This document shows positions 11,148-26,280 of a DNA stretch of 32,026 bases, piece by piece. The position numbers were made by a program, and so were the translations under genes. The notes under the pieces are model-generated. The model did not search any database. It was not told where the DNA came from and saw only the letters and a list, made by a program, of their open reading frames with translations. The stretch is from the NCBI GenBank assembly GCA_025934135.1, contig JAICYR010000017.1:1-32026 (forward strand), written 5' to 3'. Every line of letters begins with the position of its first letter. The first letter of the stretch is position 1. Source of the stretch: Acidobacteriaceae bacterium (GTDB lineage Bacteria; Acidobacteriota; Terriglobia; Terriglobales; Acidobacteriaceae).

Positions 11148-12197
11148 CTATTTTCCGGAACGTTCTGAACGTCCCTGGAGCATGCGTAACAACTCGGCTT
11201 CATCATGGCCCAGCGCCGATTTTTCAAGCCCGTTTCTGCTGAAAGCCTCAGGAATTGCGCCCGCGAGATAACAATCCAGCACCGCCGGATGGATGTAGCA
11301 CTTGCGGCAGACTGAGCGGGTATTTCCGAGCCGGGAAGCCACGCTGTTGATGGCTTCGATGATGTTCTTTTTCGCCTGGGTCTCGGAGCCGAACGGCTCG
11401 AACTCGCGCAGGGCCGCGCAGGTGAGCACGGTGCCAGCCCAGGTGCGGAAGTCTTTCGCGGTAAATTCGTCCCCGCCAATCTCACGGAGATAGTCGTTCA
11501 CGTCGGCTGAGTCGATGGTGTGATGTCCTTCGCTATCTTCGTACTGGAACAGTTCGTACCCGGGAATGTCCTGACATTGGCGGATGATCTTTGCCAGGCG
11601 GCGATCTGTCAGATCGATTGTGTGGCGGACGCCGCTCTTGCCTTCAAACTTGAATGTGACGGTGGAACCGTCCACGCTGACGTGGCGATTTCGCATGGTG
11701 GTCAGGCCAAAGGAGTGGTTCTCTTTGGCGTACTCGTCATTGCCGATGCGGATGAACGTGGTTTCCATGAGCCGGACGACCGTGGCGAGGATTTTGCGGC
11801 GGGGCATTCCCGGCAATGCAAGATCATGCTCCACCCGGCTGCGAATTTCGGGCAGGGCCGCGCCAAAGGCAAGCATGCGCTCGTACTTGGTTTCGTCCCG
11901 GACCTCGCGCCATCGAGGATGGTAGCGGGACTGCTTTCGTCCTTTTGCGTCGCGGCCGGTGGCCTGCAAATGGCCTTTAGGGTTGGGGCAAATCCAGACA
12001 TCCTTCCATGCGGGAGGAATGGCCAGCGAGCGGATGCGCCCCAGCGTTTCAGGGTCGCGCAGCGAAGAGCCGTCAGGATTGCGATAGCGGAAGCCCTTCC
12101 CGCAACGAATTCTGTGGATGCCGGGCTTTGTGTCGGAAACGTACCGAAGCCCCGCTTGTTTGGCTGATTGAATGGGGTCAGTGGCAATTGTGTACAT
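11148..12197 (-). CDS. DNA topoisomerase IB
   Basis: A poxvirus-like bacterial type IB topoisomerase of about 349 residues. It relaxes supercoils through a 3'-phosphotyrosyl intermediate. Catalytic features are visible: Arg in KDFRTWAGT, Lys in the FKFEGKSG hairpin, and the nucleophile Tyr in RKCYIHPAVLDCY near the C-terminus. The N-terminal GLRYVSD and IPPAWKDVWICPNPKGHLQATG segments are typical of bacterial TopIB. ATG 12197 (MYTIATDPIQSAKQ) is chosen; an in-frame GTG at 12230 would add 11 residues. Bacterial TopIB is patchily distributed and accessory to the essential topoisomerases. It is divergent from the first glycan gene. Confidence 0.93.
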   Translation of the reverse strand: MYTIATDPIQSAKQAGLRYVSDTKPGIHRIRCGKGFRYRNPDGSSLRDPETLGRIRSLAIPPAWKDVWICPNPKGHLQATGRDAKGRKQSRYHPRWREVRDETKYERMLAFGAALPEIRSRVEHDLALPGMPRRKILATVVRLMETTFIRIGNDEYAKENHSFGLTTMRNRHVSVDGSTVTFKFEGKSGVRHTIDLTDRRLAKIIRQCQDIPGYELFQYEDSEGHHTIDSADVNDYLREIGGDEFTAKDFRTWAGTVLTCAALREFEPFGSETQAKKNIIEAINSVASRLGNTRSVCRKCYIHPAVLDCYLAGAIPEAFSRNGLEKSALGHDEAELLRMLQGRSERSGK

Positions 12198-12334
12198 CAG
12201 TCTCGGGGCCCAGACGGAGCTTTGGGGCACGCTCCGCCTTTATTGAGATGCTTGCGGGCAAGTTCCTGAAAACGCAAACATCTTGGCGTAAAGCGGCGCC
12301 ATCCCAGCAAAAGGGAAGGTTCTCTGGAGCGGGC

Positions 12335-13429
12335 ATGCACTTCGTAGTTTTCGGGCTTACCGTTTCTTCATCGTGGGGAAACGGCCATGCCACGCTCTGG
12401 CGCAGCCTGCTGAAGGCGATGTCGCTGCGCGGCCACACGGCGTCGTTTTACGAGAAGGATGTTTCCTATTACGCCGATACGCGCGATCTATGGACGCCGC
12501 CGCCGGGAGTGAGGCTGCACCTTTACGATTCGATTCAAGATATACGGCTGGACATCATGCGGGAACTCGCGAGTGCGGATGCGGCTTTCTGTACAAGTTA
12601 TTGCCAGGATGGCCCCGAGGCCTCAAGCATGATTCTGGAATCAAAGGCCACAATTAAGGGATTCTATGATCTTGATACCCCAGTCACGCTGAACGCAATT
12701 CAATCGGACGGTGCGGTGCCGTATCTGCCTGTCGAGGGTTTGGGCGGATTTGACCTGGTGCTGAGCTATACAGGCGGTCGCGCGCTGAGCGATTTGCAAA
12801 CGAAGCTGGGTGCGCGGCGCGTGGCCCCGCTGTATGGGTCGGTAGATCCGGAGTCGCATTGTCCGGTGGACCCGATGCCCGAGTTTCGGGGCGATCTCTG
12901 CTATTTGGGAACTTATGCGGGCGACCGGCAAAGGGCCTTGGAAGAGCTTTTTCTCAAGCCGGCGGCCCACATGCCGCGGGAGCGCTTTGTAATTGGCGGA
13001 GCGCAGTATCCGGACAGCTTTCCATGGGGAGAAAACATTTATTTTGTCCGGCACCTGCCGCCGTCGCTGCATCCGGCTTTTTTTTGCTCAGCGCGGGCGA
13101 CGCTGAATGTGACGCGCCGTTCGATGGCCGAGTATGGCTATTGTCCTTCGGGAAGATTGTTTGAGGCGGCGGCTTGCGGTGCGGTAATTGTGAGCGACTG
13201 GTGGGATGGGCTGGATGAGTTTTTCACGCCGGGAGAGGAGATTCTGAAGGCGCAATCGGCCAAAGAGGTGGAAAAGGCGCTTGCGCTGTCTGACGCGGAG
13301 TTGCGCCGAATTGGTAGCGCGGCGCGTGAGCGCGCCTTGGAGGAACACACGGCTAATCGCCGGGTGGTGGAACTTGAGTCAATCTGCGAAGGAGTGCTGG
13401 CGAGCGTGCCGAGCGCGTTCGCAGCGTAA
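12335..13429 (+). CDS. CgeB-like GT-B glycosyltransferase 1
   Basis: A 364-residue protein opening with VVFGLTVSSSWGNGHAT, a nucleotide-sugar glycosyltransferase N-terminal strand and Gly-rich loop. The C-terminal half (PSGRLFEAAACGAVIVSDWW and FTPGEEIL) matches the CgeB/Glyco_trans_1_2 domain common in surface-glycan loci. It is closely similar in layout and wording to the glycosyltransferase at 16742-17821 (SSWGNGHAT, YLGTYA.DRQ, YSPS/CPSGRLFEA), so the two are paralogs. ATG 12335 follows a GGAG box. It starts the rightward glycan operon, 15 bases before the nucleotidyltransferase. Donor and acceptor are unknown. Confidence 0.82.
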   Translation: MHFVVFGLTVSSSWGNGHATLWRSLLKAMSLRGHTASFYEKDVSYYADTRDLWTPPPGVRLHLYDSIQDIRLDIMRELASADAAFCTSYCQDGPEASSMILESKATIKGFYDLDTPVTLNAIQSDGAVPYLPVEGLGGFDLVLSYTGGRALSDLQTKLGARRVAPLYGSVDPESHCPVDPMPEFRGDLCYLGTYAGDRQRALEELFLKPAAHMPRERFVIGGAQYPDSFPWGENIYFVRHLPPSLHPAFFCSARATLNVTRRSMAEYGYCPSGRLFEAAACGAVIVSDWWDGLDEFFTPGEEILKAQSAKEVEKALALSDAELRRIGSAARERALEEHTANRRVVELESICEGVLASVPSAFAA

Positions 13430-13444
13430 ACGGAACCAAGAGCA

Positions 13445-14245
13445 ATGTGGGGAATTATTCCAGCAGCGGGAGCGGGCAGCCGGATTCAGCCGCTTGCCTT
13501 TTCAAAAGAGCTGCTGCCGGTGGGCAGCCGCGTGGAGAACGGGCGGGAGCGTCCGCGCGCGGTGAGCGAATATCTGGTGGAGCGAATGATTCGCGGCGGC
13601 GCGGACAAGCTGTGCTTCGTGATCGCGCCGGGAAAGACAGACATTCTGCAATACTACGGATCGCGTTTGTGGGGCGCCGACATTGCGTATGTGGTGCAGC
13701 CAAACCCCGGCGGTTTGTGCGATGCGGTGTTTCGCGCCGCGCCGCTGATTCATCCAGATGAGCCGGTGCTGATCGGGCTGCCGGACACAATATGGTCGCC
13801 GGATAATGGGCTGCAAGCGCTGCCTGAAAATTGCCTGTCCTTTCTCCTGTTCCCGGTGGAGCAGCCGGAATTCTTCGACGCCGTGGTGATGGATGATGAC
13901 GGCGCGGTGCGGCAGATTCAAGTGAAGCAGCGCGGAGCATCTTCAAAATGGATATGGGGGGCGATCAAGATGCCCGGCTCGGTTTATCATGCGCTGCATC
14001 GACTGTGGCTGCGCGCGGAGCGGCAGGACGAGTACTTTGGAACCCTGGTGAATGCATGGCTTGCGGAAGGCGGCGCGGCAGTGGGCGTAAAGGCGGGCCG
14101 CGAGTACGTGGATGTGGGCACGCTGCACGGATACAGGGCGGCGGTCCACATTCTGGAACAGCCATCGGCCGGGGAGCGAAGTTCCGGGAACAGCAACCCA
14201 AAGGAGAAGAGCATTGATGAGCCTGTCACAGTGGTCCGCGATTGA
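13445..14245 (+). CDS. Sugar-phosphate nucleotidyltransferase
   Basis: A 266-residue NTP_transferase enzyme. The signature PAAGAGSRIQPLAFSKELLP at residues 6-25 is the nucleotide-binding and catalytic Arg/Lys motif of glucose-1-phosphate thymidylyl/uridylyl/cytidylyltransferases. GLPDTIW carries the metal-binding aspartate, and EYVDVGTLHGY carries the second one. It should activate a sugar-1-phosphate to the NDP-sugar used by nearby transferases and SDR enzymes. The nucleotide cannot be read from the motif. The last 29 bases overlap the methyltransferase start, so coupling is likely. The C-terminal tail after about residue 240 is low-complexity and probably disordered. Confidence 0.87.
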   Translation: MWGIIPAAGAGSRIQPLAFSKELLPVGSRVENGRERPRAVSEYLVERMIRGGADKLCFVIAPGKTDILQYYGSRLWGADIAYVVQPNPGGLCDAVFRAAPLIHPDEPVLIGLPDTIWSPDNGLQALPENCLSFLLFPVEQPEFFDAVVMDDDGAVRQIQVKQRGASSKWIWGAIKMPGSVYHALHRLWLRAERQDEYFGTLVNAWLAEGGAAVGVKAGREYVDVGTLHGYRAAVHILEQPSAGERSSGNSNPKEKSIDEPVTVVRD

Positions 14246-15005
14246 CGAGCAGCGGCTGGAAGAAGAAATAGCCGTGCTGGGGCCATGGTTCCATAACCTG
14301 CGGCTGCGCGGGGTGCAGACCGCGCCGAACCATTTTCTCGGGGATTATCCGGAGGTAAAATTCGCAAATTTTCAACACGCCATCCCGGCAGACCTTTCCG
14401 GCAAGACGGTGCTCGATATCGGCTGTAACGCCGGGTTCTATTCGCTCGAAATGAAGCGACGCGGCGCGGCGCGTGTGCTGGGAATCGATACGGACGAACA
14501 TTACCTTAGGCAAGCTCGCTTTGCGGCGGAAATAGAAGAGGAGGACGTGGAATTTCGCCGCATGGCGGTATGGGATGTGGCTGAACTGGGCGAGAAGTTT
14601 GATCTGGTGATGTTCATGGGCGTGCTGTATCACCTGCGGCATCCGCTGCTCGCGCTGGATCTGATTCATGAGCACGTGGCAAAGGACTGGATGCTGTTCC
14701 AAAGCATGCAGCGCGGCAGCAGGGAGGTGGAGCAGCTGAACCAGGATTACGAGTTCAGCGCGACGGAGATGTTCGATGGCCCCGGATTTCCGAAGATGCA
14801 CTTTATCGAAAACCTCTATGCCCACGACGAGACGAACTGGTGGGTGCCGAACCGCGCCTGCGTGGAGGCGATGCTGCGTTCGTCCGGCTTTGTGATTGAA
14901 GAGCAGCCGGAAGAGGAAGTGTATCTGTGCCGCTGGCGCGAAATTGAAGTTCCGCCGGATGGTCCGCATTGCGTGTATCCGGCGAGGGGACCAAGGGAGC
15001 GATAA
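14217..15005 (+). CDS. SAM methyltransferase, CmoB-like (Rta_06860/TIGR04290-type)
   Basis: A 262-residue class I methyltransferase with motif I TVLDIGCNAGFYS at residues 64-76. The segments WFHNLRLRGVQTAP and FDLVMFMGVLYHLRHPL resemble CmoB, the tRNA uridine carboxymethyl transferase, but the chain is shorter and the context is sugar metabolism. From memory the TIGR04290 (Rta_06860) methyltransferase family fits, and it occurs with glycosyltransferases and a B12 radical SAM protein; this was not searched. ATG 14217 follows an AAGGAG box at 14201-14206 and overlaps the nucleotidyltransferase end by 29 bases. Likely role is O-methylation of a sugar or glycan. Confidence 0.83.
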   Translation: MSLSQWSAIDEQRLEEEIAVLGPWFHNLRLRGVQTAPNHFLGDYPEVKFANFQHAIPADLSGKTVLDIGCNAGFYSLEMKRRGAARVLGIDTDEHYLRQARFAAEIEEEDVEFRRMAVWDVAELGEKFDLVMFMGVLYHLRHPLLALDLIHEHVAKDWMLFQSMQRGSREVEQLNQDYEFSATEMFDGPGFPKMHFIENLYAHDETNWWVPNRACVEAMLRSSGFVIEEQPEEEVYLCRWREIEVPPDGPHCVYPARGPRER

Positions 15006-15009
15006 GAAA

Positions 15010-16065
15010 ATGGGTAATGTCATCGAGTTGTCTTGTGAGAATGTATTGAGCGCAGCTGAAAGCCTGCTTGCGAAGCGCAGGCTGGATGCTGCTTTGCGCC
15101 GATTTCAGGAAGCGGAAGAGATGGGCGCAAGTTTGGATGACTGTGCGGCGGGACGATGGCAAATTCATATGCTTCGCGGCGATTTCGCGGCGGCATGGGA
15201 GGAGAGTCGCAGGATTCGCGAGGGTGGGAAGCACGATCCAAATTGCCTTTGGCGCGGCGAAGATGTTCGCGGAAAAAGAGTGATGGTTCGGTGCCTGCAT
15301 GGACTTGGCGACGCGGTCCAGTTCTTTCGCTATGCTCCTCAATTGGAGGTGATGGCGGAAAGTGTTGTGTGGGAGGTCCCGCCGGAGCTTTTGCAATTAG
15401 CGCCCTATTTTCGCGGAGTGGAACGCGCAGTTACGTGGGGCGGCGAAGGAGAGACAGCTAAGGAGTGGGATGTTCAGATCGAGAGCATGGAACTGCCGTG
15501 CATGTTTAAGACGCGGCTGACGGACCTTCCGATATCGACCGATTATCTGTGGCTGCCGCGAAAGCTGGCGGACGCAGTCCATGCCGGGATGGGGGCGGCA
15601 TCCATGCCGCGCATCGGCCTGGTATGGGCCGCCGGCGAGTGGAACCAGTCGCGCTCTGTTCCGCCGGAGTTGCTCTCGCAGCTTCTGGAGACCAATGGGT
15701 GTGAATTCTGGAACATGCAGGGCGGACCCGCGCAGCATTTCACCGCGCCTGATAAATTGCGGGACACGAAACTTTGCCACAGCGGGATTCTCGCGCTCGC
15801 ATCCGTAATTGAGCAGTTCGATCTTGTCATCACGGTCGATACTCTGGCCGCTCACCTTGCGGGCGCGCTGGGCGTAGAGGCATGGGTAATGCTGCAATAC
15901 GCCGCGGACTGGAGATGGATGATGGGCCGCGATGACAGCCCGTGGTATCCATCGTTCAGGCTCTTTCGGCAGCCTTCGCCGGGCAACTGGGCAGCGGTGG
16001 TCCACGCGGTGCAATATGCTTTGCAGGAGTGGCTGGAATCGGAAGCTGAGGGAGAGGCGGCGTGA
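15010..16065 (+). CDS. TPR/GT9-like glycosyltransferase protein
   Basis: A 351-residue soluble protein. Residues about 10-80 form helix pairs of TPR type (SAAESLLAKRRLDAALRRFQ, then HMLRGDFAAAWEE). The remainder resembles the glycosyltransferase-9/heptosyltransferase-like domain fused to TPR proteins: CLHGLGDAVQFFRYAP, then DLVITVDTLAAHLAGALG and DSPWYPSFRLFRQPSPGNW near the C-terminus. In such proteins the DTLAAHLAGALG segment contributes to the nucleotide-sugar pocket. ATG 15010 lies 4 bases after the methyltransferase stop. Function is probably glycosyl transfer in the same pathway; donor and acceptor are unknown. Confidence 0.75.
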   Translation: MGNVIELSCENVLSAAESLLAKRRLDAALRRFQEAEEMGASLDDCAAGRWQIHMLRGDFAAAWEESRRIREGGKHDPNCLWRGEDVRGKRVMVRCLHGLGDAVQFFRYAPQLEVMAESVVWEVPPELLQLAPYFRGVERAVTWGGEGETAKEWDVQIESMELPCMFKTRLTDLPISTDYLWLPRKLADAVHAGMGAASMPRIGLVWAAGEWNQSRSVPPELLSQLLETNGCEFWNMQGGPAQHFTAPDKLRDTKLCHSGILALASVIEQFDLVITVDTLAAHLAGALGVEAWVMLQYAADWRWMMGRDDSPWYPSFRLFRQPSPGNWAAVVHAVQYALQEWLESEAEGEAA

Positions 16066-16760
16066 AGCCGCGCGCCTGGGACAGCTTCGACGTTTACCTG
16101 TTCGATATTGATGGAACGCTGCTGCATTGCAGGGACGCGGTGCATTACTTCGCGTTTTGCAGCGTGCTTCAACGGGTTGTACGCAGGCCCATGACACTGG
16201 AAGGCGTGGTTGCTCATGGCAATACGGATATTGGGATTCTGCGTGATGCTTTTAGACTCGCTGAAATTGAAGAAGGTTTGTGGCGACCGAGGCTGACTGA
16301 GCTTACCGGGGCCATGTGCGACTATGTGCAGCGGAGGGAGCGAGAACTCTGCATCGAGGCGCTGCCGAACGTGGGCCGGGTACTGGACCATCTGCGGGAT
16401 AAGGGGGCCGTGCTGGGAGTGGCGACTGGAAACCTGAGAGGTATTGGGGAACTGAAGCTAAAACGCGCGGGACTCCTAACCCGCTTCCAATTCGCCGGGT
16501 GGAGTGATGGATTTGAGGACCGCGCAGATGTCTTCCGGGCTGCAGTGGAGGGGGCCCGAAGCTTTGCCGGAGCAGGCGCGTCAATATGCGCGGTTGGAGA
16601 TACTCCAGCAGACATTATCGCCGCCCGTGCGAATGGATTGTCCATTATCGCCGTCGCTACTGGAATCTATACCGTAGATGTGCTTGCCAGCGAGAATCCA
16701 GACTTATGCGTGGGTTGTATGGATGAGTTGCTGGTGGCATCTCAAGCCCTGCCCGCATAA
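16062..16760 (+). CDS. HAD-superfamily phosphatase
   Basis: A 232-residue haloacid-dehalogenase-like hydrolase. Motif I is LFDIDGTLL near residue 11 with both catalytic aspartates. Motif II is in GVATGN, and motif IV is in CAVGDTPADI. The helical cap between motifs I and II suggests a phosphoglycolate-phosphatase-type (C1 cap) enzyme. In this cluster it could remove phosphate from a sugar phosphate. The start is GTG at 16062 overlapping the previous stop (GTGA). Its 3' end overlaps the convergent glycosyltransferase by 19 bases. Confidence 0.85.
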   Translation: MKPRAWDSFDVYLFDIDGTLLHCRDAVHYFAFCSVLQRVVRRPMTLEGVVAHGNTDIGILRDAFRLAEIEEGLWRPRLTELTGAMCDYVQRRERELCIEALPNVGRVLDHLRDKGAVLGVATGNLRGIGELKLKRAGLLTRFQFAGWSDGFEDRADVFRAAVEGARSFAGAGASICAVGDTPADIIAARANGLSIIAVATGIYTVDVLASENPDLCVGCMDELLVASQALPA

Positions 16761-17821
16761 CATTGCGCCACCACCTCTTCAAACTGAGTTGCGCGATGCG
16801 CGGCAGTATGGCTTGCGAGGATGCGTTCGCGCGCACGCTCGCCGAGTTTGATGCGGTCCGATTCCGGATAAGTCGCCAGGATGTCGACTAACTCGTCCTC
16901 GTTACGGGGAAGAAGAACTTCTTCGCCCGGAGTCAGGAATTCATTGAGGCCGGGCCACTCGTCGGAAATAATCGCCACGCCACAAGCAGAGGCCTCAAAG
17001 AGGCGGACTGAAGGGGAGTAGCCGGCGGCAACCATGTTGTCCCGAGTAAGGTTGAGGGTAAAGCGCGACGAAGAATAGAAGGAAGGGTGCCAGGTTGGCG
17101 AGACGTGTATGAAACGCCGGATATTTGGCTGCCATGGAGTGTCGGCTGGATACTGCGGCCCAGCGACGATAAAGTGGCTTTCGGGCAGCCGCGCGGCGGC
17201 GCCGTTCAGTAGGCGCATCAGCTTAGGCTGGCGGTCTCGCGCATAAGTTCCCAGATAGCTTAGGCCGCATTGAAATCTCTTGAGTACGGGTGAAGGTTTG
17301 TATATGTCTGGATCTACGGAACAGTAAAATGCCACGGTACGCGGGGAGCCATAAACTTCTTCGAGTTCGCGCAGGACAGGGCCGCCTGTAAAGCTAAGAT
17401 AAGTTGAGTAATGTGGAATCAATTCCGGATCAAGATAACTTGTGCTTCCGCGAGAGCGAAGCTGCGAGATCGTAATTGGGGTGTCGATGTCGTAGAAAAT
17501 AAGAGGGCCATAGCCCGCGTGAAGTAGCTCCCGGGTCGCAGCGATGGCATCGGAAAAGTAGGAGCCGATGATGACAGCATCGGCGTCCGCAGCCAACCTG
17601 ATGAGTTGGCGCGCACTTTCAGACCATTTGCTATACAGGTGGACTTTGCAAAATTCCGGCTCAGGAAGATCGCGATTGCTGCGATACCATTCCGTATCTT
17701 TCTCGATAAAGATGATGTGATGGCCATTGCGCGCGAGGGCTTTGGCCAGCGAGCGGTAGGTGGTGGCGTGGCCGTTTCCCCAGGAGGAAGTAATGGTGAG
17801 TCCGTAAATGACGATCTTCAC
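16742..17821 (-). CDS. CgeB-like GT-B glycosyltransferase 2
   Basis: A 359-residue protein beginning with a GTG codon and IVIYGLTITSSWGNGHATTY, nearly the same motif as the rightward glycosyltransferase at 12335. Shared blocks include a YLGTYA-DRQ segment, the GPQYP segment and SPSVRLFEASACGVAIISDE in the C-terminal CgeB domain. It is the last gene of the leftward glycan operon and overlaps the upstream gene by 4 bases (GTGA). Its end runs 19 bases into the convergent HAD gene. It probably adds one sugar of the same product made by its paralogs. Confidence 0.82.
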   Translation of the reverse strand: MKIVIYGLTITSSWGNGHATTYRSLAKALARNGHHIIFIEKDTEWYRSNRDLPEPEFCKVHLYSKWSESARQLIRLAADADAVIIGSYFSDAIAATRELLHAGYGPLIFYDIDTPITISQLRSRGSTSYLDPELIPHYSTYLSFTGGPVLRELEEVYGSPRTVAFYCSVDPDIYKPSPVLKRFQCGLSYLGTYARDRQPKLMRLLNGAAARLPESHFIVAGPQYPADTPWQPNIRRFIHVSPTWHPSFYSSSRFTLNLTRDNMVAAGYSPSVRLFEASACGVAIISDEWPGLNEFLTPGEEVLLPRNEDELVDILATYPESDRIKLGERARERILASHTAAHRATQFEEVVAQCYAGRA

Positions 17822-18936
17822 GCGGCCTCCTGAATCACCTCGATTGCCGGTTCAATGCGCTGGCCCGATTTTCGCTCGCATATCTGGAGAATTGCTTGCT
17901 CGGCCTGCTCGGCACGACGGGCGTAGGTATGGTCGCGCAGGGCACGGGCACGGAAGGCCCGGCCGATTTGTTTGCGGCTGTTCTCGTCATGGCGACGCAG
18001 CGCATTTATAACGTCCTGGGCCGTGCTGATGACGAGGATTTCGCTTTCAGGGTCGAAGCAGTCGTCGATCCCTGACCATTCATCGCACAACATGCAGGCA
18101 CCCGCACCGGCGACTTCAAAGACGCGCGTTGGAGGGGAGAATCCGCAATTGGCCATCGATGAGCGATTGATGTTGAGCACCATACCGGCGGAGCAGTTCA
18201 CGCGATTGTGGTCGTGGGTGGGAACGTGGCCGATCCAGCGAACGTTGCCGGGCATCGGCTTGTCTCCCCAGCCCTCGCCGCCAAGGAGAAAATGCTTTTC
18301 GGGTGCCATGGCAGCCGCGCGAAGAAATAACTCTTCCACCCGGCGCTCGCGGTCGGGAAGCCGGTTTCCAATGAATGCAACATCGCAGGCGAGGGCGGGA
18401 TCAGGCGTGACAGGATGGTGGGTGTCGGGATCAAGTCCGTTATAGACGCTGCAATACGACTGCGCGCCATGCCGGAGATAGGCGGCGCGCATCTCCGGGC
18501 CTCCGCCATAAGTGAAGATGGCGTCGTATTGGCAGATGCGCTGCCGGAAAGGATCGTGCGCATCACTTTCGATACGGCCGATGGTTGCGGGAGCATCCAC
18601 GTCCCAGAAAATGACTGCTGCGGGAGTCTTGAGATCGAGCACCGCGCCTTCGAGTAACTCATCGTCTACGCCGAGGCCGCTGTGCTTGATCACCACATCC
18701 GCGTGGCCGGCGTATTCCAACATGCGGGAAATGTCGATGGAAGGGCGATAGACGATGGAACTTACGTAGGAGTGGTTATGGTTATCACGATGCTGCTGGC
18801 GTCCGTAGGCGTCCGGTTCGGCAAAAGTAATGTGATGGCCCCGCTGCGCGAGATATTTATAAATGCCGCGATAGTAAGTGGCGGCCCCATTCCAGTAAGA
18901 CGAAACTATGCTGGACCCGAAGACAAAGATATTCAC
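17818..18936 (-). CDS. CgeB-like GT-B glycosyltransferase 3
   Basis: A 372-residue member of the same glycosyltransferase family. It opens with a GTG codon and IFVFGSSIVSSYWNGAATYY, a variant of the Gly-rich loop of its neighbours. The C-terminal half keeps the family block: GFSPPTRVFEVAGAGACMLC, DEWSGIDD, and FDPESEIL. GT-B proteins of this type are cytoplasmic or membrane-associated. Both ends overlap neighbouring genes by 4 bases, so it is tightly coupled in the leftward operon. Divergence from paralogs 1 and 2 suggests a different acceptor or linkage. Confidence 0.82.
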   Translation of the reverse strand: MNIFVFGSSIVSSYWNGAATYYRGIYKYLAQRGHHITFAEPDAYGRQQHRDNHNHSYVSSIVYRPSIDISRMLEYAGHADVVIKHSGLGVDDELLEGAVLDLKTPAAVIFWDVDAPATIGRIESDAHDPFRQRICQYDAIFTYGGGPEMRAAYLRHGAQSYCSVYNGLDPDTHHPVTPDPALACDVAFIGNRLPDRERRVEELFLRAAAMAPEKHFLLGGEGWGDKPMPGNVRWIGHVPTHDHNRVNCSAGMVLNINRSSMANCGFSPPTRVFEVAGAGACMLCDEWSGIDDCFDPESEILVISTAQDVINALRRHDENSRKQIGRAFRARALRDHTYARRAEQAEQAILQICERKSGQRIEPAIEVIQEAA

Positions 18937-20048
18937 TGGAGTAACTCCTCACAAATGTCTGTTAACTGCTCCGCGCGATGCCTGCAGGTGTGACGCGAAA
19001 GAATGGTTTCGAGTCCGCGCAGAGCCTGAGCGCGGGCTGCGGATTCGTCTGTAAGGAGCTTTTCCATCGCGCGCTTCATTTCCGCTCCGCTTCCGACAAA
19101 GAGAAGGTCGCCCTCGCGAAAGAGTTGCTCGTCATCGTCCCAGGGAGTCGAGATAAGAGGAATTCCGCAGGCCATGGCCTCAAACACACGAATGGTTGGG
19201 ATGCCGTGCATGGCCGATGCGTATTGCTGGCGCGGAATGTGAACCGTGAGTCGCGAGCGGGCATAGGCGGCGGATGCGTCGAGATTGGGCAGATATCCAC
19301 CGTAATGCGCCCCGGCATTGCTCAGAGCGGCGAGGCCCTGTTCGGGATAGCGCACTCCGAATACCTGAAAGCGCCGGTTGCGGAGGGCCATGGCCGGCCT
19401 GAGTAGGAATTCGCAGATTTCTTTGGAGCGCTCCTCGTCGCCCCAGTTGCCGATCCATACGACGTCGGTTGTTTTCTCCGCGCCGGGACGCGGGCAGAAG
19501 ACGGTGGTGTCGGCGGCCTCGTGCAAGATCCAGACATTGCGAATGCCGAACTGCTCCTGATAAATGCGGCGCAGCGAGTCGCCGAATGCGAGAATGCCGT
19601 CGAACCTATGTGTGCCAAAAAGACGAATCTGCTCGGGCGAGGAGGAGGCGCGGTGATGGGTGTCGTGAAAGAGCAGGCGGAAGCCCATCTGGGCCCGTAG
19701 CTCAAGCAGTGCGGCAGCCAGTTCGGGCGGGTTCCATTCGTGCAGAATGACGATGTCACAGCCCTTGAGCGCGTTGCGCCAGAAGTCGGGATTGTAGAGA
19801 GGCATTCCGTTGTACGGCGTGACGCGAAGTTCGGGATAGGTTGCGGCGAACTGCGAAAGCGAAGCCGCGCCTAGCGGCTCATCGCGAAGGTTGTTGATAG
19901 ACCAGGCGGGGCACGGCTCGAAGATGGCTACATTGTGCCCGATGGCGACCAGGCCACGCAGCAGGCCGCGAAGGAAATGGGCATTGCCGTTGTTCCAGTC
20001 AGAACGCACGGCGTGCGCCAGATACGCGATGCGAAGGTTATGCGACAT
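18933..20048 (-). CDS. CgeB-like GT-B glycosyltransferase 4
   Basis: A 371-residue glycosyltransferase with the N-terminal block RIAYLAHAVRSDWNNGNAHF. The middle has FHDTHHRASS and a VWIGNWGDEERS segment, and the C-terminal block is TIRVFEAMACGIPLISTPWD. The last matches the nucleotide-sugar-binding region of glycosyltransferase 1-type domains. Among the four CgeB-like proteins here it is the most divergent at the N-terminus. ATG 20048 overlaps the end of the upstream GT4 gene by 11 bases, and the stop overlaps the next gene by 4. Substrates are unknown. Confidence 0.82.
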   Translation of the reverse strand: MSHNLRIAYLAHAVRSDWNNGNAHFLRGLLRGLVAIGHNVAIFEPCPAWSINNLRDEPLGAASLSQFAATYPELRVTPYNGMPLYNPDFWRNALKGCDIVILHEWNPPELAAALLELRAQMGFRLLFHDTHHRASSSPEQIRLFGTHRFDGILAFGDSLRRIYQEQFGIRNVWILHEAADTTVFCPRPGAEKTTDVVWIGNWGDEERSKEICEFLLRPAMALRNRRFQVFGVRYPEQGLAALSNAGAHYGGYLPNLDASAAYARSRLTVHIPRQQYASAMHGIPTIRVFEAMACGIPLISTPWDDDEQLFREGDLLFVGSGAEMKRAMEKLLTDESAARAQALRGLETILSRHTCRHRAEQLTDICEELLQ

Positions 20049-21135
20049 AAGCCGGCGCCTCCGAGCGTGCGAGCGCGGATTGGAAAACTTGCAAATAGCC
20101 TTTGGTCATTCGCTGGGCAGTGAAGAGGCCGGCGCGCTGGAAAGATTGAATGCGCGCGGTCCGCAGCCGTTCGGGGCTGTCGCGAAGTTCGCGGAGCAAC
20201 GATGTGAGCGACTCCGCTCCGGAAAAGTAAAGCGCGCTGTCCGCCCAGACTTCGCGGAGTGAGGAAATGTCATTCGCGATGACGGCGCAGCCGCACAGCG
20301 CGGCTTCCAGCGGAGCAAGCCCGAACGGTTCATAGCGGGATGTGCAGATGTAGATAGAGCTTTCGCAAAACAAATTGAGCAGGTCGTTCTGCGAGAGCAT
20401 GCCCAGGGAGGTTATGTGGCCGGTGGCGGATGCGCCGAAGTCATCATGCGCTTCTCCCGCTACGAGGAGTGGAATCGGCGACTTCACCTCGCAAAGGATG
20501 GAAATGTTCTTGGCCTCGTCCCAGAGCCTGCCCGCCGTGACGGCCTGAAGCTTGCGGGCCGCTGAAGAAACGGCATCCAGGGTCCGGCCATTCGGGATGA
20601 CCGCGGTTGATTCTGGCAGAGGGAGATTACGGGCGAGGGCGTGCAACATCCAGCGCGTTGGCGCGATCACGCAGTCCGCCCCGGCGAGGCCGCGTTTCAC
20701 AAATCTTAGATATTGCCTGAGCCAGGCGGAGTCTTCGAGCTTGCCGTCGCGGCAGCTTTCGGACCAACTCATCACGTCGCTATGGGCGGTAATGATTTTG
20801 GGAATGGAAAGCGGTAGGTATCCGAAGCAAAATTGATTGCTGTGCAGCAGATCGGGTTGGAAGCCGCAGGCCATCTTCATGAGAAACGGCGCGGCACCGG
20901 AATAAGCGTGTTCGTTGTCCTGCATCCATTCGAGAGGCATGTTCAAGGCTTCGCAGCGGAAGGCTGCTCCCCATGCGCGGCTTGTATCGTAAAGCCACGC
21001 CTGCTGCGCGGCTGAGGGCTTTCTTCCCAGACTGACCAGCGCGACCGCGCAGCCGCTGCGCAGCAGCCCGGTGGCAAGCTCCCGCGTAAAGGTCCAGACG
21101 CCGCCGACCGTGTCGGTGGTCATCAGGATGCGCAT
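20038..21135 (-). CDS. GT4-family retaining glycosyltransferase
   Basis: A 365-residue GT-B enzyme. The N-terminus MRILMTTDTVGGVWTFTREL resembles the GGVW loop of GT4 enzymes. The C-terminal domain has the retaining E-x7-E motif SRYEPFGLAPLEAALCG with Glu269 and Glu277. It should transfer a sugar from an NDP-sugar with retention of configuration. ATG 21135 lies inside the end of the upstream radical SAM gene (13-base overlap). Being a different family from the CgeB-like proteins, it may add the first or a branch sugar. Confidence 0.87.
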   Translation of the reverse strand: MRILMTTDTVGGVWTFTRELATGLLRSGCAVALVSLGRKPSAAQQAWLYDTSRAWGAAFRCEALNMPLEWMQDNEHAYSGAAPFLMKMACGFQPDLLHSNQFCFGYLPLSIPKIITAHSDVMSWSESCRDGKLEDSAWLRQYLRFVKRGLAGADCVIAPTRWMLHALARNLPLPESTAVIPNGRTLDAVSSAARKLQAVTAGRLWDEAKNISILCEVKSPIPLLVAGEAHDDFGASATGHITSLGMLSQNDLLNLFCESSIYICTSRYEPFGLAPLEAALCGCAVIANDISSLREVWADSALYFSGAESLTSLLRELRDSPERLRTARIQSFQRAGLFTAQRMTKGYLQVFQSALARSEAPAYVA

Positions 21136-22430
21136 TCGAGCTCCGCCAGGGACTGTGGATGCTGGTCCTGGATGTCGCTGTAGCCCTTGTCGGCAAACAG
21201 GTTCAGATAAAAGGAGTGGGCGCGTTCCCAGGCTTCGTCATCTGGCTGCGCACCGAAGGTGGTGACGTACTCGGGGCTGCCGGGGAAGGGGAACATGGGG
21301 ACAGGCTCGCTGACCCAAACGCCGTTTGCCTTCAGGCGATTCTGCCAAGCCTGAATAGCGGCGGGATCATCTTTCGTGGTCTTGATAAGGTTCGCCTGCA
21401 CCCACGGGATGAACTTGCGCGCGTAGAGCAGCAGGTCGCCGATGCGGTCGGTGGAGAGGCGGCAGTTCTTATTCATCTCCTCGCGGCCTTCTTCGGTGAT
21501 GGATTCAATGCCGCACTCGAAGGAGACACAGTGGGCCTTGCCCAGCATCTCCAGCGTTTCTTCATTCCATAGATCGATGCGGGTTTGGAAGCCGATGGAG
21601 AGTGGCCGCTTCGCAATTTCCTGCAATAGCGTGCGAACTTGTTTGCCGACGCCAAAGATTTCATCGATGAAATAGATGTACTCGACGCCGCGCGCAATGA
21701 GCTGGTCGATTTCCGTTAACACTACAGAAAGGCTGCGCTCGCGGAATTTGTTGCGGAAGAGCGTCTTGTTGCAGAAGGTGCAGGAATAGGGGCATCCGCG
21801 CGCGAATTCGACTTCGGCGCCCAGTTTCAGGTGGTCCGCGCCGTGGCCGGGGAAGACGTGATGCAGGTGGGAGTGGCGCTCGACTGGATAGTCGGAGTAG
21901 TCGAGCATGGGAAGCGCCGACATATCGGTCGCACCCAGTCCCTCAGAGAGATGAATCGCGCCGCGCTCGCCGCGCCAGCAGCAGCCAGCGACCATCTCCC
22001 AAGGCATAGTTGCGAGATGTGGCAACGTCTGGTCAGGCTCGCCGCGCAGCGCCACATCCGCGCCTGTTTTTCGCAGCGTTGCGTGAGGAGTGACAGAGCC
22101 GTGAGGCCCAATCACAACGGTTGTGGAGTGGTGGTTGAGGGCCTTAATCCATTCCTGAGGGACGCGAAGTTCCGGCTGAGGGCAGCGCCAGAAGAGATAA
22201 GACGGCGCGGTGGGGATTACAAGAAAGTCCTCGTCGAAGCCCGCGAGCCGTGCAGAGACCTGGGTAGGCGTGAGCTTTTCCATGAAGGCGTCGATGAGCA
22301 TGGCCTCGTGTCCGGCGGCACGCAGCATTTCGCGCGCGGAAAGCAACTCGAGAGGAAAGTGCGGCTCGGGGCAGCCGAAGTAGGTTGATCCCTCAAAGCT
22401 CCATACCGGATTGACGAGGGCATATCTCAT
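21123..22430 (-). CDS. B12-binding-domain radical SAM protein (TIGR04295-like)
   Basis: A 435-residue radical SAM enzyme with an N-terminal B12-binding-like domain (residues 1 to about 150) and the cluster motif RGCPYSCTFC holding Cys213, Cys217 and Cys220. The segment YIYFIDEIFGVGKQVRTLLQ and the later FECGIESITEEGREEMNK fit class B-type methylthiotransferase/methylase-like radical SAM barrels. From memory it resembles the TIGR04295 oligosaccharide-associated family; no search was made. Such enzymes often methylate unactivated carbon. In this operon a C-methylation or other radical change of a sugar is plausible. The gene overlaps the downstream GT4 start by 13 bases and the upstream SDR gene by 4. 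Confidence 0.85.
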   Translation of the reverse strand: MRYALVNPVWSFEGSTYFGCPEPHFPLELLSAREMLRAAGHEAMLIDAFMEKLTPTQVSARLAGFDEDFLVIPTAPSYLFWRCPQPELRVPQEWIKALNHHSTTVVIGPHGSVTPHATLRKTGADVALRGEPDQTLPHLATMPWEMVAGCCWRGERGAIHLSEGLGATDMSALPMLDYSDYPVERHSHLHHVFPGHGADHLKLGAEVEFARGCPYSCTFCNKTLFRNKFRERSLSVVLTEIDQLIARGVEYIYFIDEIFGVGKQVRTLLQEIAKRPLSIGFQTRIDLWNEETLEMLGKAHCVSFECGIESITEEGREEMNKNCRLSTDRIGDLLLYARKFIPWVQANLIKTTKDDPAAIQAWQNRLKANGVWVSEPVPMFPFPGSPEYVTTFGAQPDDEAWERAHSFYLNLFADKGYSDIQDQHPQSLAELECAS

Positions 22431-23521
22431 GCCACCTCCATGTGCAGCGCGGCGGCGGGTTCGAGGCTGGCAGCGGGGAACGGAGTGACGTTGTGGTTCT
22501 GCCGCCAGAACTGATGGATGTCATCGAGGATTTGTACGATGGAGCGATGCGCACGCCAGCCGGTCATCTGCTCGAGCTTCGACGTGTCGGCGATGTAAAG
22601 CGGCTGGTCGCCCGGGCGTATACGGCTGTACTTGAGGCGCAGCGGCTTGCGAACTTTGCGCTCAATAGTGTGCAGCATTTCCACGATGGAGACGGCGCGT
22701 TCCATACCGCCGCCGAGGTTGAAGACTTCTCCCCGGGTACGGTCGATTGTGCGGCGGACGGCCATCATGGCGTCGATGAGGTCTTGCACGTGCAGCACGT
22801 CGCGGACCTGATAACCATCGCCATAAACGGTGATAGGTTTGCCGTTGAGGACTGAGTAGAGGAAGTGCGCCACCCAGCCCTGGTCCTCATTGCCGAACTG
22901 CCGCGGGCCGGCGATGCAGGACATACGAAAGACCACGGTCGGAAGATCGTATATGCGGGAGTAGTCGTGGATGTATTGATCGGCCGTGCCTTTGGAGCAT
23001 CCGTACGGCGAGTGGAAGTCGAGTGGTTCGGACTCATCGACTCCGCGAAAGCCACGCAGCGATGCACGATAGTGGGTGCCTTCAACCTCAACGGAAAGGC
23101 GTTTGAGGGAGCCGTAGACCTTATTAGTGGAGGTATAGAGGATGAAGGGCTTGCGTCCGGAAAGCCGCGCGGCTTCCAGCACATTGAGAGTGCCTCCGGC
23201 ATTAATTTCAAAATCGGTGGCGGGGTCGTCCACGGAAGTGGTGACCGCGACCTGCGCGGCCAGTTGGTAAATTTCCGATACGCCGGTGACGGCCTGCTGC
23301 ACCGCCCGGCGGTCGCGCACATCGCCTCGTACCACTTCCAGCCGCTTGCTGCCCGGCAGTGAGCGCAGCCATTGGACGTTGTGCATGACGCCCGCGCGCG
23401 AAAAATTGTCGAAGATTCGCACGCGGGTTTCGGGTTCCGACAGGAGCCGCTCGGCGAGATTGGAGCCGATAAAGCCCGCACCTCCGGTAATCAGAACGGT
23501 ACGGCCAATTCCGTTTTTCAT
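22427..23521 (-). CDS. Extended SDR NDP-sugar epimerase, CDP-paratose 2-epimerase-like
   Basis: A 364-residue extended short-chain dehydrogenase. The NAD-binding motif is GGAGFIGSN at residues 13-21. The catalytic Tyr173 and Lys177 lie in SPYGCSKGTADQY. STNKVYG and the DESEPLDFHSPYG block resemble RfbE/CDP-tyvelose epimerases. FNLGGGMERAVSIVEML is the usual C-terminal segment. It should epimerise or reshape an NDP-sugar for the nearby transferases. ATG 23521 is chosen because an AAGGAA box lies upstream and homology starts there; the reading frame could extend to 23668 but that would overlap the next gene. There is a 68-base gap to the upstream SDR gene. Confidence 0.86.
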   Translation of the reverse strand: MKNGIGRTVLITGGAGFIGSNLAERLLSEPETRVRIFDNFSRAGVMHNVQWLRSLPGSKRLEVVRGDVRDRRAVQQAVTGVSEIYQLAAQVAVTTSVDDPATDFEINAGGTLNVLEAARLSGRKPFILYTSTNKVYGSLKRLSVEVEGTHYRASLRGFRGVDESEPLDFHSPYGCSKGTADQYIHDYSRIYDLPTVVFRMSCIAGPRQFGNEDQGWVAHFLYSVLNGKPITVYGDGYQVRDVLHVQDLIDAMMAVRRTIDRTRGEVFNLGGGMERAVSIVEMLHTIERKVRKPLRLKYSRIRPGDQPLYIADTSKLEQMTGWRAHRSIVQILDDIHQFWRQNHNVTPFPAASLEPAAALHMEVA

Positions 23522-23589
23522 CGCTTCATTTCCTTTCGTGCTGCGCGGTGCATGGTTTTCAGAACCTACCTCCACTTTCTTCAGAGCAC

Positions 23590-24711
23590 TTAAGCGGTCA
23601 GCCCATACGCGCTTAGTTCCTTCAGCATGGTCTCCGCCCGGTCCTCGGCCTGCTGTTTGCTGAGCCACGCGGCCAGTTCGCTGAAACCTTCTTCATGCGT
23701 TACCTTTGGCGCGTAGCCAAGCAGGGCGCGTGCCTTCGTCAAATCCGCGTAGCAATGGCGAATGTCTCCGGCGCGGTATTTCCGGGTGACAACCGGCGCG
23801 ATTGAGGAATTGAGCGAGCCGGCAAGCATTTGTGCAACTTGCAGGATCGAAACCGGATTTCCCGAACCGATGTTGATGACTTCGCCGTCGGACTCCGGTC
23901 GCTCCATGGCCAGCATGTTGGCGCGCACAATGTCGTGAACACTTACAAAGTCGCGCATCTGCTCGCCGTCCTCGAATACGAGGGGCGCCTGCCCGTTCAG
24001 CAGCCGGGAAGCGAAAATGGCGGCCACTCCGGTGTAGGGGTTCGAGAGGGCCTGGCGCGTTCCGTAAATGTTAAAGAATCGGAGCGCTGTCACCGGCAGC
24101 CCGTAAGTGCGCCCGAAGATGAGGCACATCTCCTCCTGGTCGCGTTTGGAGAGGGCGTAAAAAGAATTGATTTCCGATGGCTTGGACTCATCTGTGGGGC
24201 GTGGCTCCAGCACGGTTCCACAATGTTCGCAGCGGAGGTCCCATTGTCCGGCTTTGAGTTGCGCGGTGGTGCGCACCGGCGGCGCGGCGGCTTTATCGCA
24301 GGCGGAGCAATAGTAGCGGCCTTCGCCGTAGATGGACATTGAAGAGGCGACGATCAGCTTGTCCAGCGCGCTCTTGTTGTCGAGAATGGCCTGGAGCAGC
24401 TCCGCCGTTCCGCCGGTGTTCACGCTCATGTAGCGGCTGATTTCGTACATGGACTGGCCGACACCGACGCATGCCGCGAAGTGAAAGACCACATCGACTC
24501 CGCGCAGCGCTTGTTTGAGGCAATTGGGATCGCGTACGTCGCCCGTCATTAACTCGACATCAGGAGACAGATAGGCGGGCGGGCCGTTCGGGTGGACCTG
24601 TGTATTGAGCGCATCGAGTACGCGGACCTCGTGGCCGGCGCCAAGCAGCCCATCGGCCAGGTGCGAGCCGACGAAACCCGCGCCGCCGCTAATCAGAATC
24701 CGCCTGCTCAT
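23590..24711 (-). CDS. Extended SDR NDP-sugar enzyme with inserted four-Cys zinc knuckle
   Basis: A 373-residue extended SDR with GGAGFVGSH (residues 9-17) for NAD binding, VASSMSIYG, and the catalytic pair Tyr185/Lys189 in FYALSKRDQ. It resembles NDP-sugar 4-epimerases/dehydratases. Between the serine strand and the catalytic tyrosine there is an insertion of about 40 residues with two CxxC pairs: Cys135/Cys138 (YCSACDK) and Cys161/Cys164 (RCEHCGT). The arrangement looks like a zinc ribbon placed close to the substrate pocket. The rest of the fold is intact, including RFFNIYGTRQ and MRDFVSVHD. The stop of the upstream glycosidase-like gene overlaps its start by 4 bases. Confidence 0.86.
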   Translation of the reverse strand: MSRRILISGGAGFVGSHLADGLLGAGHEVRVLDALNTQVHPNGPPAYLSPDVELMTGDVRDPNCLKQALRGVDVVFHFAACVGVGQSMYEISRYMSVNTGGTAELLQAILDNKSALDKLIVASSMSIYGEGRYYCSACDKAAAPPVRTTAQLKAGQWDLRCEHCGTVLEPRPTDESKPSEINSFYALSKRDQEEMCLIFGRTYGLPVTALRFFNIYGTRQALSNPYTGVAAIFASRLLNGQAPLVFEDGEQMRDFVSVHDIVRANMLAMERPESDGEVINIGSGNPVSILQVAQMLAGSLNSSIAPVVTRKYRAGDIRHCYADLTKARALLGYAPKVTHEEGFSELAAWLSKQQAEDRAETMLKELSAYGLTA

Positions 24712-25646
24712 GCCGCGTTTACCTCCTCTGCCTGGGTGTCATTTGCAGCCGTGTTGGCCGGGGCGTAGCGCTGCACGGCCCATCGCGCAAAGTCCGCGAA
24801 TTGGGCGTTGTCGCGCGGGGGACTGGTGTGGTGCTCCTCCAAGCCCAGGTGCGCCGGTGTAAAGCACAGCGTCACAGCAACATCGAAAGGCTCAAGGGCG
24901 TCCATCATACGGTCGAACCAAGCGACGGCGTTGGGACGGAACGAGTCCGCCCAGCTCAATCCGGTCCGCACATGGCGGACGCCATGCGCTTTCATCCATT
25001 CAACGGCCTGGTCCAGCCGGGGGTCTTCAAAGTGAAACCATTGGCAGAGCCCGACGGAGCCATCCGTTGGAAAGTACTCGGCGGCAAGCTTGGGCGAGCC
25101 ATCGCTCTTGAGCAGGCCGAGGTAGTAGTGGCGGTAATAGGACGAGCCCTCGGCCTCTTTGTGGCGGGTTTCGGCGGGCCAGCTTGGGGGCAGGTCAAGA
25201 AGGCTGTACCAGTGGATGCGCTCGGCTTTGCCCCGAATCAGATCCAGCGTTCGCTGAAGACCGAACGCCTGGACTTCTTCGGCGCCAAATGAAGACGCGC
25301 CCACCTCCAGCACCCAGACTGGCTTGCCGGATACCTCGGCAGCTTCCGCGATTCGATCTGGCCATTCATTGATTTGCCAGTGGTTCCAATCGAGCGGGAA
25401 TCCGTGTACGCCGACCGCGTCCACGTGTTCCATGACGCCCTCACCTGCCATGAGGCGTATAAAGTCGCAATCGCATGAGGAGACGCCGCCGAGGACAATC
25501 GGCAACCCGGGGCTTGCCTCCCGGACCGCGGTTGAGGCTTGCCTGGCCATATCGCAGAAGCGCGCCCATCCGGGGTCAAGATGAAAGTTCCAATGTGAGA
25601 GATTATTCGGCTCGTTCCAAAGTACAACGGCTTCCAGCACTGACAT
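24708..25646 (-). CDS. Glycoside-hydrolase-like TIM barrel with permuted order
   Basis: A 312-residue protein. It opens almost at once with VVLWNEPNNLSHW (Asn11-Glu12, the acid/base strand-4 motif of clan GH-A), then VWVLEVGASS (Glu114, strand-7 nucleophile) and HWYSLLDLP (strand 8). After about residue 195 it continues with GLCQWF, VRHVRTGLSW, VAVTLCFTP and FARWAVQRYAP, which look like strands 1-3 of the same fold. The order is therefore 4-8 then 1-3. An in-frame TAG 24 bases upstream and an AAGGGAG box support a true start; GTG at 25640 has better spacing from this box than ATG 25646. No signal peptide is visible. It is the first gene of the leftward operon, and both catalytic Glu residues are kept. 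Confidence 0.75.
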   Translation of the reverse strand: MSVLEAVVLWNEPNNLSHWNFHLDPGWARFCDMARQASTAVREASPGLPIVLGGVSSCDCDFIRLMAGEGVMEHVDAVGVHGFPLDWNHWQINEWPDRIAEAAEVSGKPVWVLEVGASSFGAEEVQAFGLQRTLDLIRGKAERIHWYSLLDLPPSWPAETRHKEAEGSSYYRHYYLGLLKSDGSPKLAAEYFPTDGSVGLCQWFHFEDPRLDQAVEWMKAHGVRHVRTGLSWADSFRPNAVAWFDRMMDALEPFDVAVTLCFTPAHLGLEEHHTSPPRDNAQFADFARWAVQRYAPANTAANDTQAEEVNAA

Positions 25647-25710: not shown

Positions 25711-25774
25711 TACAAAGAAGTTTTGAGGTTGCTCTAAAAACTCAGATGGTTCCGCATGAAGACTGATGAAAACA

Positions 25775-25791
25775 GTGTTTTTCAGAAACAC
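25775..25791. repeat. Small inverted repeat upstream of the Arg/Ser-tail gene
   Basis: GTGTTT-TTCAG-AAACAC is a perfect 6-base-pair stem with a 5-base loop. It is one of three small hairpins in the leader region before the gene at 25882, the others being at 25688-25710 and 25816-25830. Function is unknown. Confidence 0.35.
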
Positions 25792-25815
25792 GTGAAATGG
25801 CAACCAATGGACAAC

Positions 25816-25830
25816 CTGCCTTGGAGGCAG
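25816..25830. repeat. Small inverted repeat close to the 25882 start
   Basis: CTGCC-TTGGA-GGCAG is a perfect 5-base-pair stem with a 5-base loop, about 50 bases before the start codon at 25882. It may help structure the 5' leader; no known riboswitch pattern was recognised. Confidence 0.3.
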
Positions 25831-25881
25831 TCCTATCAAACTCGGCAGAGGGTAAGCCACACTCAAAGGGGAGGAGTGGAA

Positions 25882-26280
25882 ATGGCATTGTCAAAAACTA
25901 CACAGAATCATGAAGAAATTAAGAATTGGGCAGAGAAACGAGGGGCTGTTCCGGCGGAAGTAGCCAGCACGCATCGCCGGGATGAACCGGGAATTCTTCG
26001 CTTTTGCTTTCCGCGCGCTAGAGGCAAGAACAACGACAATCTGACAGAGATCTCTTGGGACGACTTCTTCGAGAAATTTGATGAGAACAATCTTGAGCTT
26101 GTGTATCAGGAAAAAACCGCTGCCGGAAGGCAAAGTAATTTCAACAAGTTGATTCATCCGGGACCGATGGGCCGCGCTGGATCTGGAAGCAGCAGCAGAA
26201 GTGGCAGCCGCGCTGAGTCGCGGAGCCGCAGTTCAGAAAGCAAATCCACCACGAGCCGGAGCCATCGACGCGCGGCGTAA
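25882..26280 (+). CDS. Small protein with Arg/Ser-rich tail
   Basis: A 132-residue protein. Residues 1-95 form a charged globular part with NWAEKRGAVPAEV, GILRFCFPR and the ISWDDFFEKFDENNLELVYQ segment. This resembles a small conserved bacterial protein family, sometimes mis-named as glucan branching enzyme in databases; it has no such domain here. Residues 99-132 are almost only Ser, Arg, Gly, Glu and Lys (SGSSSRSGSRAESRSRSSES and onward), likely disordered and positively charged. ATG 25882 follows a strong GGGGAGGA box at 25868-25875. Nucleic-acid binding through the tail is a guess. The YagU-like gene follows after 21 bases. Confidence 0.75.
   Translation: MALSKTTQNHEEIKNWAEKRGAVPAEVASTHRRDEPGILRFCFPRARGKNNDNLTEISWDDFFEKFDENNLELVYQEKTAAGRQSNFNKLIHPGPMGRAGSGSSSRSGSRAESRSRSSESKSTTSRSHRRAA

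Follow-up and report, generated by a model that had tools for sequence, protein, structure and literature searches.

The window analysed here is the whole 32,026-nucleotide stretch of contig JAICYR010000017.1 (assembly GCA_025934135.1, Acidobacteriaceae bacterium), and this work deals with one gene on its minus strand, which encodes a glycosidase-like protein within a glycan-assembly cassette. As indicated by structure models and by profile comparisons, this protein is very probably a naturally circularly permuted barrel of clan GH-A, related to GH39 and PslG, which would start just ahead of its fourth strand and close within one chain. The gene and the parts of its product are the following:

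24708..25646, minus strand: gene of the very probably circularly permuted GH-A-type (GH39/PslG-like) barrel, 312 amino acids from the ATG or 310 from the GTG at 25640
25059..25640, minus strand: N-terminal module (residues 3-196), with predicted beta4-beta8, both putative catalytic glutamates (E12, E114) and alpha8
25053..25088, minus strand: new linker (residues 187-198) between alpha8, the old C-terminus, and beta1, the old N-terminus
24747..25055, minus strand: C-terminal module (residues 198-300), with predicted beta1-alpha1-beta2-alpha2-beta3-alpha3

The open reading frame (ORF) reported in the first-pass annotation is indeed present, its 312 codons being preceded by an in-frame TAG eight codons 5' of the ATG, and its stop overlaps the start of the gene of an NAD-dependent epimerase, EpiA. 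A stop codon and a Shine-Dalgarno-like box had also been claimed just before the start; both exist, but the box (AGGGAG) abuts the ATG and fits better the GTG of codon 3 (25640), from which it is separated by 6 nucleotides. ATG, GTG or TTG was found at this third codon position in 106/106 full-length relatives compared (M 82, V 18, L 6), a count in which some records are included twice (82 are left once rows above 88% identity are removed) and which leaves out the partial or un-permuted L108, L109 and L110, as well as the window's own L081. Because of this conservation and of the spacing of the box, the true start is probably the GTG at 25640, a few residues ahead of beta4. In several relatives, long open frames continue upstream beyond the conserved start codon, and the residues just upstream, compared by eye, look mutually unrelated.

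The fragmented state of the window genome (300 contigs, 88% complete) may raise the suspicion of a truncated, split or misassembled gene, in which an ordinary barrel would owe its order to an assembly artefact or to a tandem duplication with lost ends. A duplication of this kind is a common way for permutations to arise, and the present form may have originated from one. However, a genome scan yielded 428 relatives, and the best 80 of them, many cut by contig ends, are all permuted (80/80) and share both order and start position, including those of the complete-titled records of Minicystis rosea, Sorangium cellulosum So ce26 and Anaeromyxobacter oryzae. One of these 80 loci (L004) had been set apart by an automatic rule and proved permuted on inspection. 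The permuted gene is also carried by complete plasmids, such as pSymB of S. meliloti. A present-day artefact, ruled out by these loci, complete records and plasmids, has a practically negligible probability, and the early statement that the gene is not truncated is upheld.

From 61 aligned rows, AlphaFold2 predicted for the window protein one eight-strand barrel, with a predicted local distance difference test (pLDDT) of 90.5 and a predicted template-modelling score (pTM) of 0.88, the strands lying at residues 4-9, 50-55, 77-82, 110-115, 143-147, 199-201, 225-231 and 255-261. The same layout was predicted for a member from Bdellovibrionales, 58% identical to the window protein (44 rows, pLDDT 88.5, pTM 0.88), so that the eight strands of a clan GH-A (beta/alpha)8 barrel appear in both models. 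Their order along the chain is GH-A-like but permuted: instead of running from beta1 to beta8, the chain would pass through beta4-beta8 and then beta1-beta3, according to both the AlphaFold2 prediction and the profile alignments. By motif, the N-terminal part holds beta4 (before WNEPN), beta5, beta6 (VHGFP), beta7 (VLEVG) and beta8 (HWYSL), and the C-terminal part beta1 (GLCQW, from residue 199), beta2 (VRTGLSW) and beta3 (TLCFTP). In line with the first reading of this DNA, LWNEPNN at the protein start thus corresponds to the strand-4 acid/base motif, modelled as beta4, and VLEVG to the strand-7 nucleophile motif, modelled as beta7 and containing the invariant E114. That reading had rightly placed strands 1-3 in the C-terminal sequence, with labels one element off: VRHVRTGLSW, given as the first strand, is beta2, VAVTLCFTP is beta3, FARWAVQRYA is helix alpha3, and beta1 is GLCQW.

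In an alignment of 83 permuted rows, the linker between the invariant K186 and G199 comprises 10 residues (31 rows), 12 (23), 13 (28) or 16 (1). The new termini fall in the alpha3-beta4 loop, the W of WNEPN being preceded by 7 residues in 82/83 rows and by 9 in the window row, counted from the ATG; at the other end, the tail beyond Y294 extends over 1 to 35 residues, rows being cut at 325 residues. Given the architecture of such barrels, the new ends and the new linker would both be on the bottom side, remote from the catalytic face. As this linker is fairly short and the models are single-chain only, a barrel closing between chains, as a domain-swapped dimer, may be considered. This appears quite improbable: AlphaFold2 closed the barrel within one chain, with high confidence, in two models, and 10-16 residues should suffice for the alpha8-beta1 connection.

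Comparison with relatives of ordinary order further informed this permutation. One of them was found in a genome (G087) of the same class as the window, with query residues 197-295 at ORF residues 32-132 and query residues 4-187 at 135-313. Eight others are borne by plasmids of Rhizobium etli CFN42, R. etli CIAT 652, Tistrella mobilis, a Geminicoccaceae bacterium, Agrobacterium fabrum, Allorhizobium pseudoryzae, Rhizobium sp. SSA_523 and CB3090. These came from plasmid searches (146 records with P0001, 147 with P0002), in which 15 loci (L159-L173) were typed for order where the barrel was found. On 12/12 un-permuted ORFs (nine close relatives and three more distant, with L112-L115, L136 and L163 outside the set), the native permuted profile aligned as two swapped pieces, and the rotated profile as a single piece, with a gain in whole-sequence score of 8 to 15 bits. 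As in a natural permutant, rotation thus restored one continuous alignment with ordinary-order homologues, both for these 12 ORFs and for PslG (see below). When the rotation point was scanned at every twelfth residue on nine relatives, the mean best piece peaked at cut 193, with 160.6 bits versus 101.2 in native order, on a broad curve (152-161 bits for cuts 157 to 217).

Among PDB sequences, the best match was PslG, a GH39 enzyme of the Psl operon of Pseudomonas aeruginosa. The 83-row native profile matched it as swapped pieces (overall E 2e-7), profile positions 196-293 falling on chain 21-129 and positions 2-153 on chain 131-301. A rotated 12-row profile gave a single continuous match, 5-253 on chain 25-300 (51.2 bits, E 9.1e-13), versus 38.3 bits (E 7.1e-09) when these 12 rows were kept in native order. 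At E <= 0.1, the rotated profile matched 19 PDB sequences and the native one 9, the rotated set having its variable tails trimmed and the native set being untrimmed. The GH39 beta-xylosidases 1px8, 2bs9 and 4ekj, which unlike the window protein have ordinary order, were matched weakly (E 6e-4 to 0.06 with the rotated profile), and more strongly by the rotated than by the native profile. Foldseek, which is bound to chain order, returned 1,527 matches to the window model, 4 of them at E <= 0.001. The 50 listed of these 1,527 included no good full-length match: those covering about the whole model had a root-mean-square deviation of about 7-18 A and a TMq <= 0.46, and the tight ones (2.7-4.4 A) spanned 158-184 columns.

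Several of these observations weigh against a permuted barrel of this relationship. The loop at residues 151-170 is poorly modelled by AlphaFold2 (pLDDT 67 and 52 in ten-residue blocks). The Foldseek pattern, while it fits a permuted barrel, stands without an un-permuted control model, and neither PslG nor GH39 is among the 50 matches listed. For the single window sequence, Pfam matches all fall under the curated cut-off (four weak families, GH13 and GH70 not being among these), and NCBIfam gave no match. Moreover, the C-terminal piece alone matches PslG weakly (6.8 bits with the 83-row native profile), which would also suit two independent domains, residues 1-195 forming a half or degenerate barrel and residues 196-300 a separate binding domain, as would a linker whose length varies from 10 to 16 residues. 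Such an arrangement is nevertheless extremely improbable and was rejected, for in 12/12 un-permuted relatives tested it is the first third of the sequence that the C-terminal part matches, and this part supplies strands 1-3 of a confident single-barrel model. Indeed, rather than failing to complete the barrel, residues 196-300 provide beta1-beta3 in the AlphaFold2 model; rather than following a full barrel as a second domain, this region directly precedes the WNEPN part in the nine close ordinary-order relatives, and the permuted relatives compared all begin at the same place just before WNEPN. The circularly permuted glycosidase barrel first proposed from the letters of the window is thus supported by the model, by the profiles and by relatives of ordinary order.

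The putative catalytic residues were kept in the permuted form. E12 and E114 are invariant in 83/83 permuted rows, like N11, H81, W146, R227 and many aromatic and polar positions around the two glutamates, and they follow the pattern of clan GH-A, with N11-E12 right after beta4 and E114 on beta7. In the 12-row rotated alignment, the PslG counterparts of E12 and E114 are chain positions 139 and 250, or Glu165 and Glu276 once 26 is added to the chain numbering. These are given as the acid-base and nucleophile of PslG in passages of two reports (PMC11912335; PMC7237758). The glutamate at the nucleophile position is kept in 8/9 close un-permuted relatives, G087 having a lysine there. This lysine, together with the fusion of barrel and epimerase in several bacteria, which would fit a substrate-presenting role, may point to a non-catalytic barrel that would serve the cassette as a scaffold or as a subunit binding sugar. 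We consider this rather unlikely, in view of the invariance of both glutamates and of their surroundings in all permuted rows. Most likely, the permuted barrel would be a retaining beta-glycosidase or transglycosidase of the cytosol, with an intermediate or a product of the glycan-assembly cassette as its target. A cytosolic site is suggested by a start too close to beta4 to leave space for a signal peptide and by the fusion of the un-permuted counterpart to an NAD-epimerase, NAD-epimerases being a cytosolic kind of enzyme; the missing space was judged by eye, which weakens this proposal. In several public records the family bears the name 'beta-xylosidase', which is no evidence of substrate.

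The genes of the cassette surrounding the glycosidase gene are the following:

23590..24711, minus strand: EpiA, NAD-dependent epimerase/dehydratase A, whose start overlaps the glycosidase stop
22427..23668, minus strand: EpiB, NAD-dependent epimerase/dehydratase B, whose counterpart bears an N-terminal un-permuted barrel in Rhizobium etli, Tistrella and Agrobacterium
21123..22430, minus strand: TIGR04295 B12-binding radical SAM protein (E 2.4e-189, 629.4 bits, cut-off 400)
16742..21135, minus strand: four glycosyltransferases, GT1-GT4
16062..16760, plus strand: HAD-type phosphatase
14112..15005, plus strand: TIGR04290 methyltransferase on the other arm of the cassette (E 1.3e-115, 384.6 bits, cut-off 300), whose start may lie further in
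13445..14245, plus strand: sugar nucleotidyltransferase-like protein
12008..13429, plus strand: the fifth glycosyltransferase

Downstream of the glycosidase, the minus-strand order is thus EpiA, EpiB, radical SAM protein and four glycosyltransferases. Homologues of these genes were found in the flanks of the 80 loci, with EpiA in 63, EpiB in 60, the radical SAM protein in 56, GT1-4 in 59, 59, 56 and 35, the methyltransferase in 52 and the nucleotidyltransferase in 35, flank ORFs being labelled by their best window match, so that other epimerase-like genes may count as EpiA or EpiB. The permuted gene is accompanied by EpiA, EpiB, the radical SAM protein and four glycosyltransferases in the window, in L001 and in L160. 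Cassettes of Bradyrhizobium, Azospirillum and Paracoccus additionally contain an inositol-3-phosphate synthase and a histidine phosphatase. No flippase or polymerase was seen among the window ORFs scanned with Pfam and NCBIfam. Such cassettes are flagged in rhizobia by the notes of the TIGR families, and no open-access paper was found under the numbers TIGR04295 or TIGR04290. Besides, EpiA contains at residues ~130-170 an inserted stretch with two CxxC pairs (YYCSACD...LRCEHCG), zinc-ribbon-like, and the EpiA counterpart of G087 has a similar insert in which the cysteines are not kept.

Un-permuted barrels occur in cassettes of the same kind. In the annotated cases (R. etli CFN42 and CIAT 652, Tistrella, Geminicoccaceae and A. 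fabrum), a protein of ~680 residues begins with the barrel, and its second half matches EpiB. EpiA, this barrel-EpiB fusion, the radical SAM protein and four glycosyltransferases are found together in Tistrella (L165) and Geminicoccaceae (L167); in Tistrella, they are in the same order as in the window cassette and are accompanied by a UDP-glucuronate decarboxylase. No separate permuted gene was seen in the examined flanks of the un-permuted plasmid loci L161, L162, L163, L165, L166 and L167. The fused barrels resemble the window protein by homology over the whole barrel and by a matching cassette, and differ from it by their beta1-beta8 order and by the fusion itself, the window gene being separate and permuted. 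On a plasmid of Xanthomonas sacchari (L163), the un-permuted barrel-epimerase gene is split over two reading frames, hence broken or mis-sequenced, and this copy was left out of the un-permuted relatives. In G087, the barrel (L111, 7543-8742, minus strand) is unfused and adjoins an EpiA homologue and glycosyltransferases, in a cluster which matches that of the window partly, no EpiB and no radical SAM gene being labelled in the examined stretch around it. In the taxonomic order to which G087 belongs, 7 genomes were searched for further un-permuted copies, and G087 alone had one. As for two-barrel intermediates, the domain lists of the loci show two pieces or one each, no search aimed at such intermediates having been made.

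Both forms are scattered among bacteria. Among 100 genomes near that of the window, its own included, 35 gave a match with E <= 0.001, which in some cases was short or distant. When 297 genomes were drawn evenly from the phylum, 10 had a match at E <= 1e-8, namely 6 permuted (window included), 3 with an un-permuted-type match only and 1 with a short partial match; one of the 6, G322, has an additional distant un-permuted match. By record title, the permuted rows of the tree belong to Acidobacteriota, Pseudomonadota, Myxococcota, Bdellovibrionota and Nitrospirota, the last two through one metagenome-assembled record apiece. A locus titled Verrucomicrobia (L006) carries a copy 76% identical to that of the window, as close as Acidobacteriaceae copies, and may be a misnamed bin or a transferred gene. 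Viral contigs were scanned for both forms, and of the 15 and 19 stretches which fitted a pattern, none encodes a relative.

The tree was built from 56 rows, 40 permuted, 9 close un-permuted and 7 distant un-permuted. The 9 close un-permuted relatives group together (100/100), and the 7 distant ones make up a separate group (100/98). Counting against a single permutation event, the free tree requires two changes to account for the 40 permuted rows, which form one group in 36% of 200 bootstrap trees, in a bootstrap that had not settled and with long branches flagged. When the permuted rows were held as one clade, the likelihood was 4.35 higher, and this arrangement was not rejected (p-AU 0.579); a single origin is thus allowed and, from these sequences, slightly preferred. 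Ordinary order would be ancestral, because it is found in PslG and in the distant un-permuted rows. Because the branch separating the two forms is long (2.94), neither a date nor a mechanism can be derived for the permutation, which may have arisen by duplication with loss of the ends or by splitting off from the epimerase fusion.

From a mechanistic point of view, an ancestor of ordinary order (beta1 to beta8) was probably cut within the alpha3-beta4 loop, while the short alpha8-beta1 linker came to connect the former ends, giving a product that would fold as one closed barrel and keep both catalytic glutamates, E12 as acid/base and E114 as nucleophile. The permuted gene would thereby take the place of the un-permuted barrel fused to EpiB in the same kind of cassette of other bacteria. 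We lean, with some reserve, towards regarding this as the first natural permutation in clan GH-A, in which one event would have freed the barrel from the epimerase fusion and reordered it near the point known from GH70, the permuted form then spreading to five phyla or more, with un-permuted forms still filling the same role in matching cassettes. To our knowledge, natural permutation of catalytic TIM barrels is rare. GH70 is the permuted glycosidase barrel met in titles and abstract openings of the open-access papers listed, and no report of natural permutation in clan GH-A or GH39 was found in the open-access literature searched, subscription papers and CAZy being outside the search. Permutation of a glycosidase barrel is thus already known (GH70 from GH13), and its instance in clan GH-A would be new as far as the open-access literature searched shows.

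The known systems differ from the window protein in several respects. PslG is also a glycosidase encoded within a glycan-biosynthesis cluster and has the same two catalytic glutamate positions, but it has ordinary strand order, a signal peptide and a C-terminal carbohydrate-binding domain, as described in a passage of PMC7237758, whereas the window protein is permuted and begins just ahead of beta4. Part of another account (PMC4919382) presents GH70 glucansucrases as permuted relatives of GH13 whose barrel starts at alpha3-beta4, with existing un-permuted relatives of the GtfC type. GH70 therefore shares with the window family a glycosidase barrel permuted in nature and with nearly the same opening point; the window family, likened to it by that partial description, is opened one helix further on and belongs to another clan. 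GH70 enzymes are, moreover, transglucosylases making alpha-glucans and bearing extra domains (PMC4919382, in part). The near coincidence of the opening points, as far as this account describes them, suggests that the alpha3-beta4 region may be a favoured place to open such barrels. Permuted and un-permuted forms in similar cassettes offer natural pairs for testing the effect of reordering on folding, stability and catalysis. Finally, permuted enzymes may be under-counted, because Foldseek, bound to chain order, and Pfam and NCBIfam did poorly on the window protein.

Two further ORFs of the window were noted on the plus strand. A small one next to the cassette (25756-26280), with a Ser/Arg-rich tail at its end, had no Pfam match at E <= 1e-5. 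The other, a cassette ORF of 389 residues (14896-16065), had no Pfam or NCBIfam match at the cut-offs used and is the best window match of an ORF in 23/80 loci.

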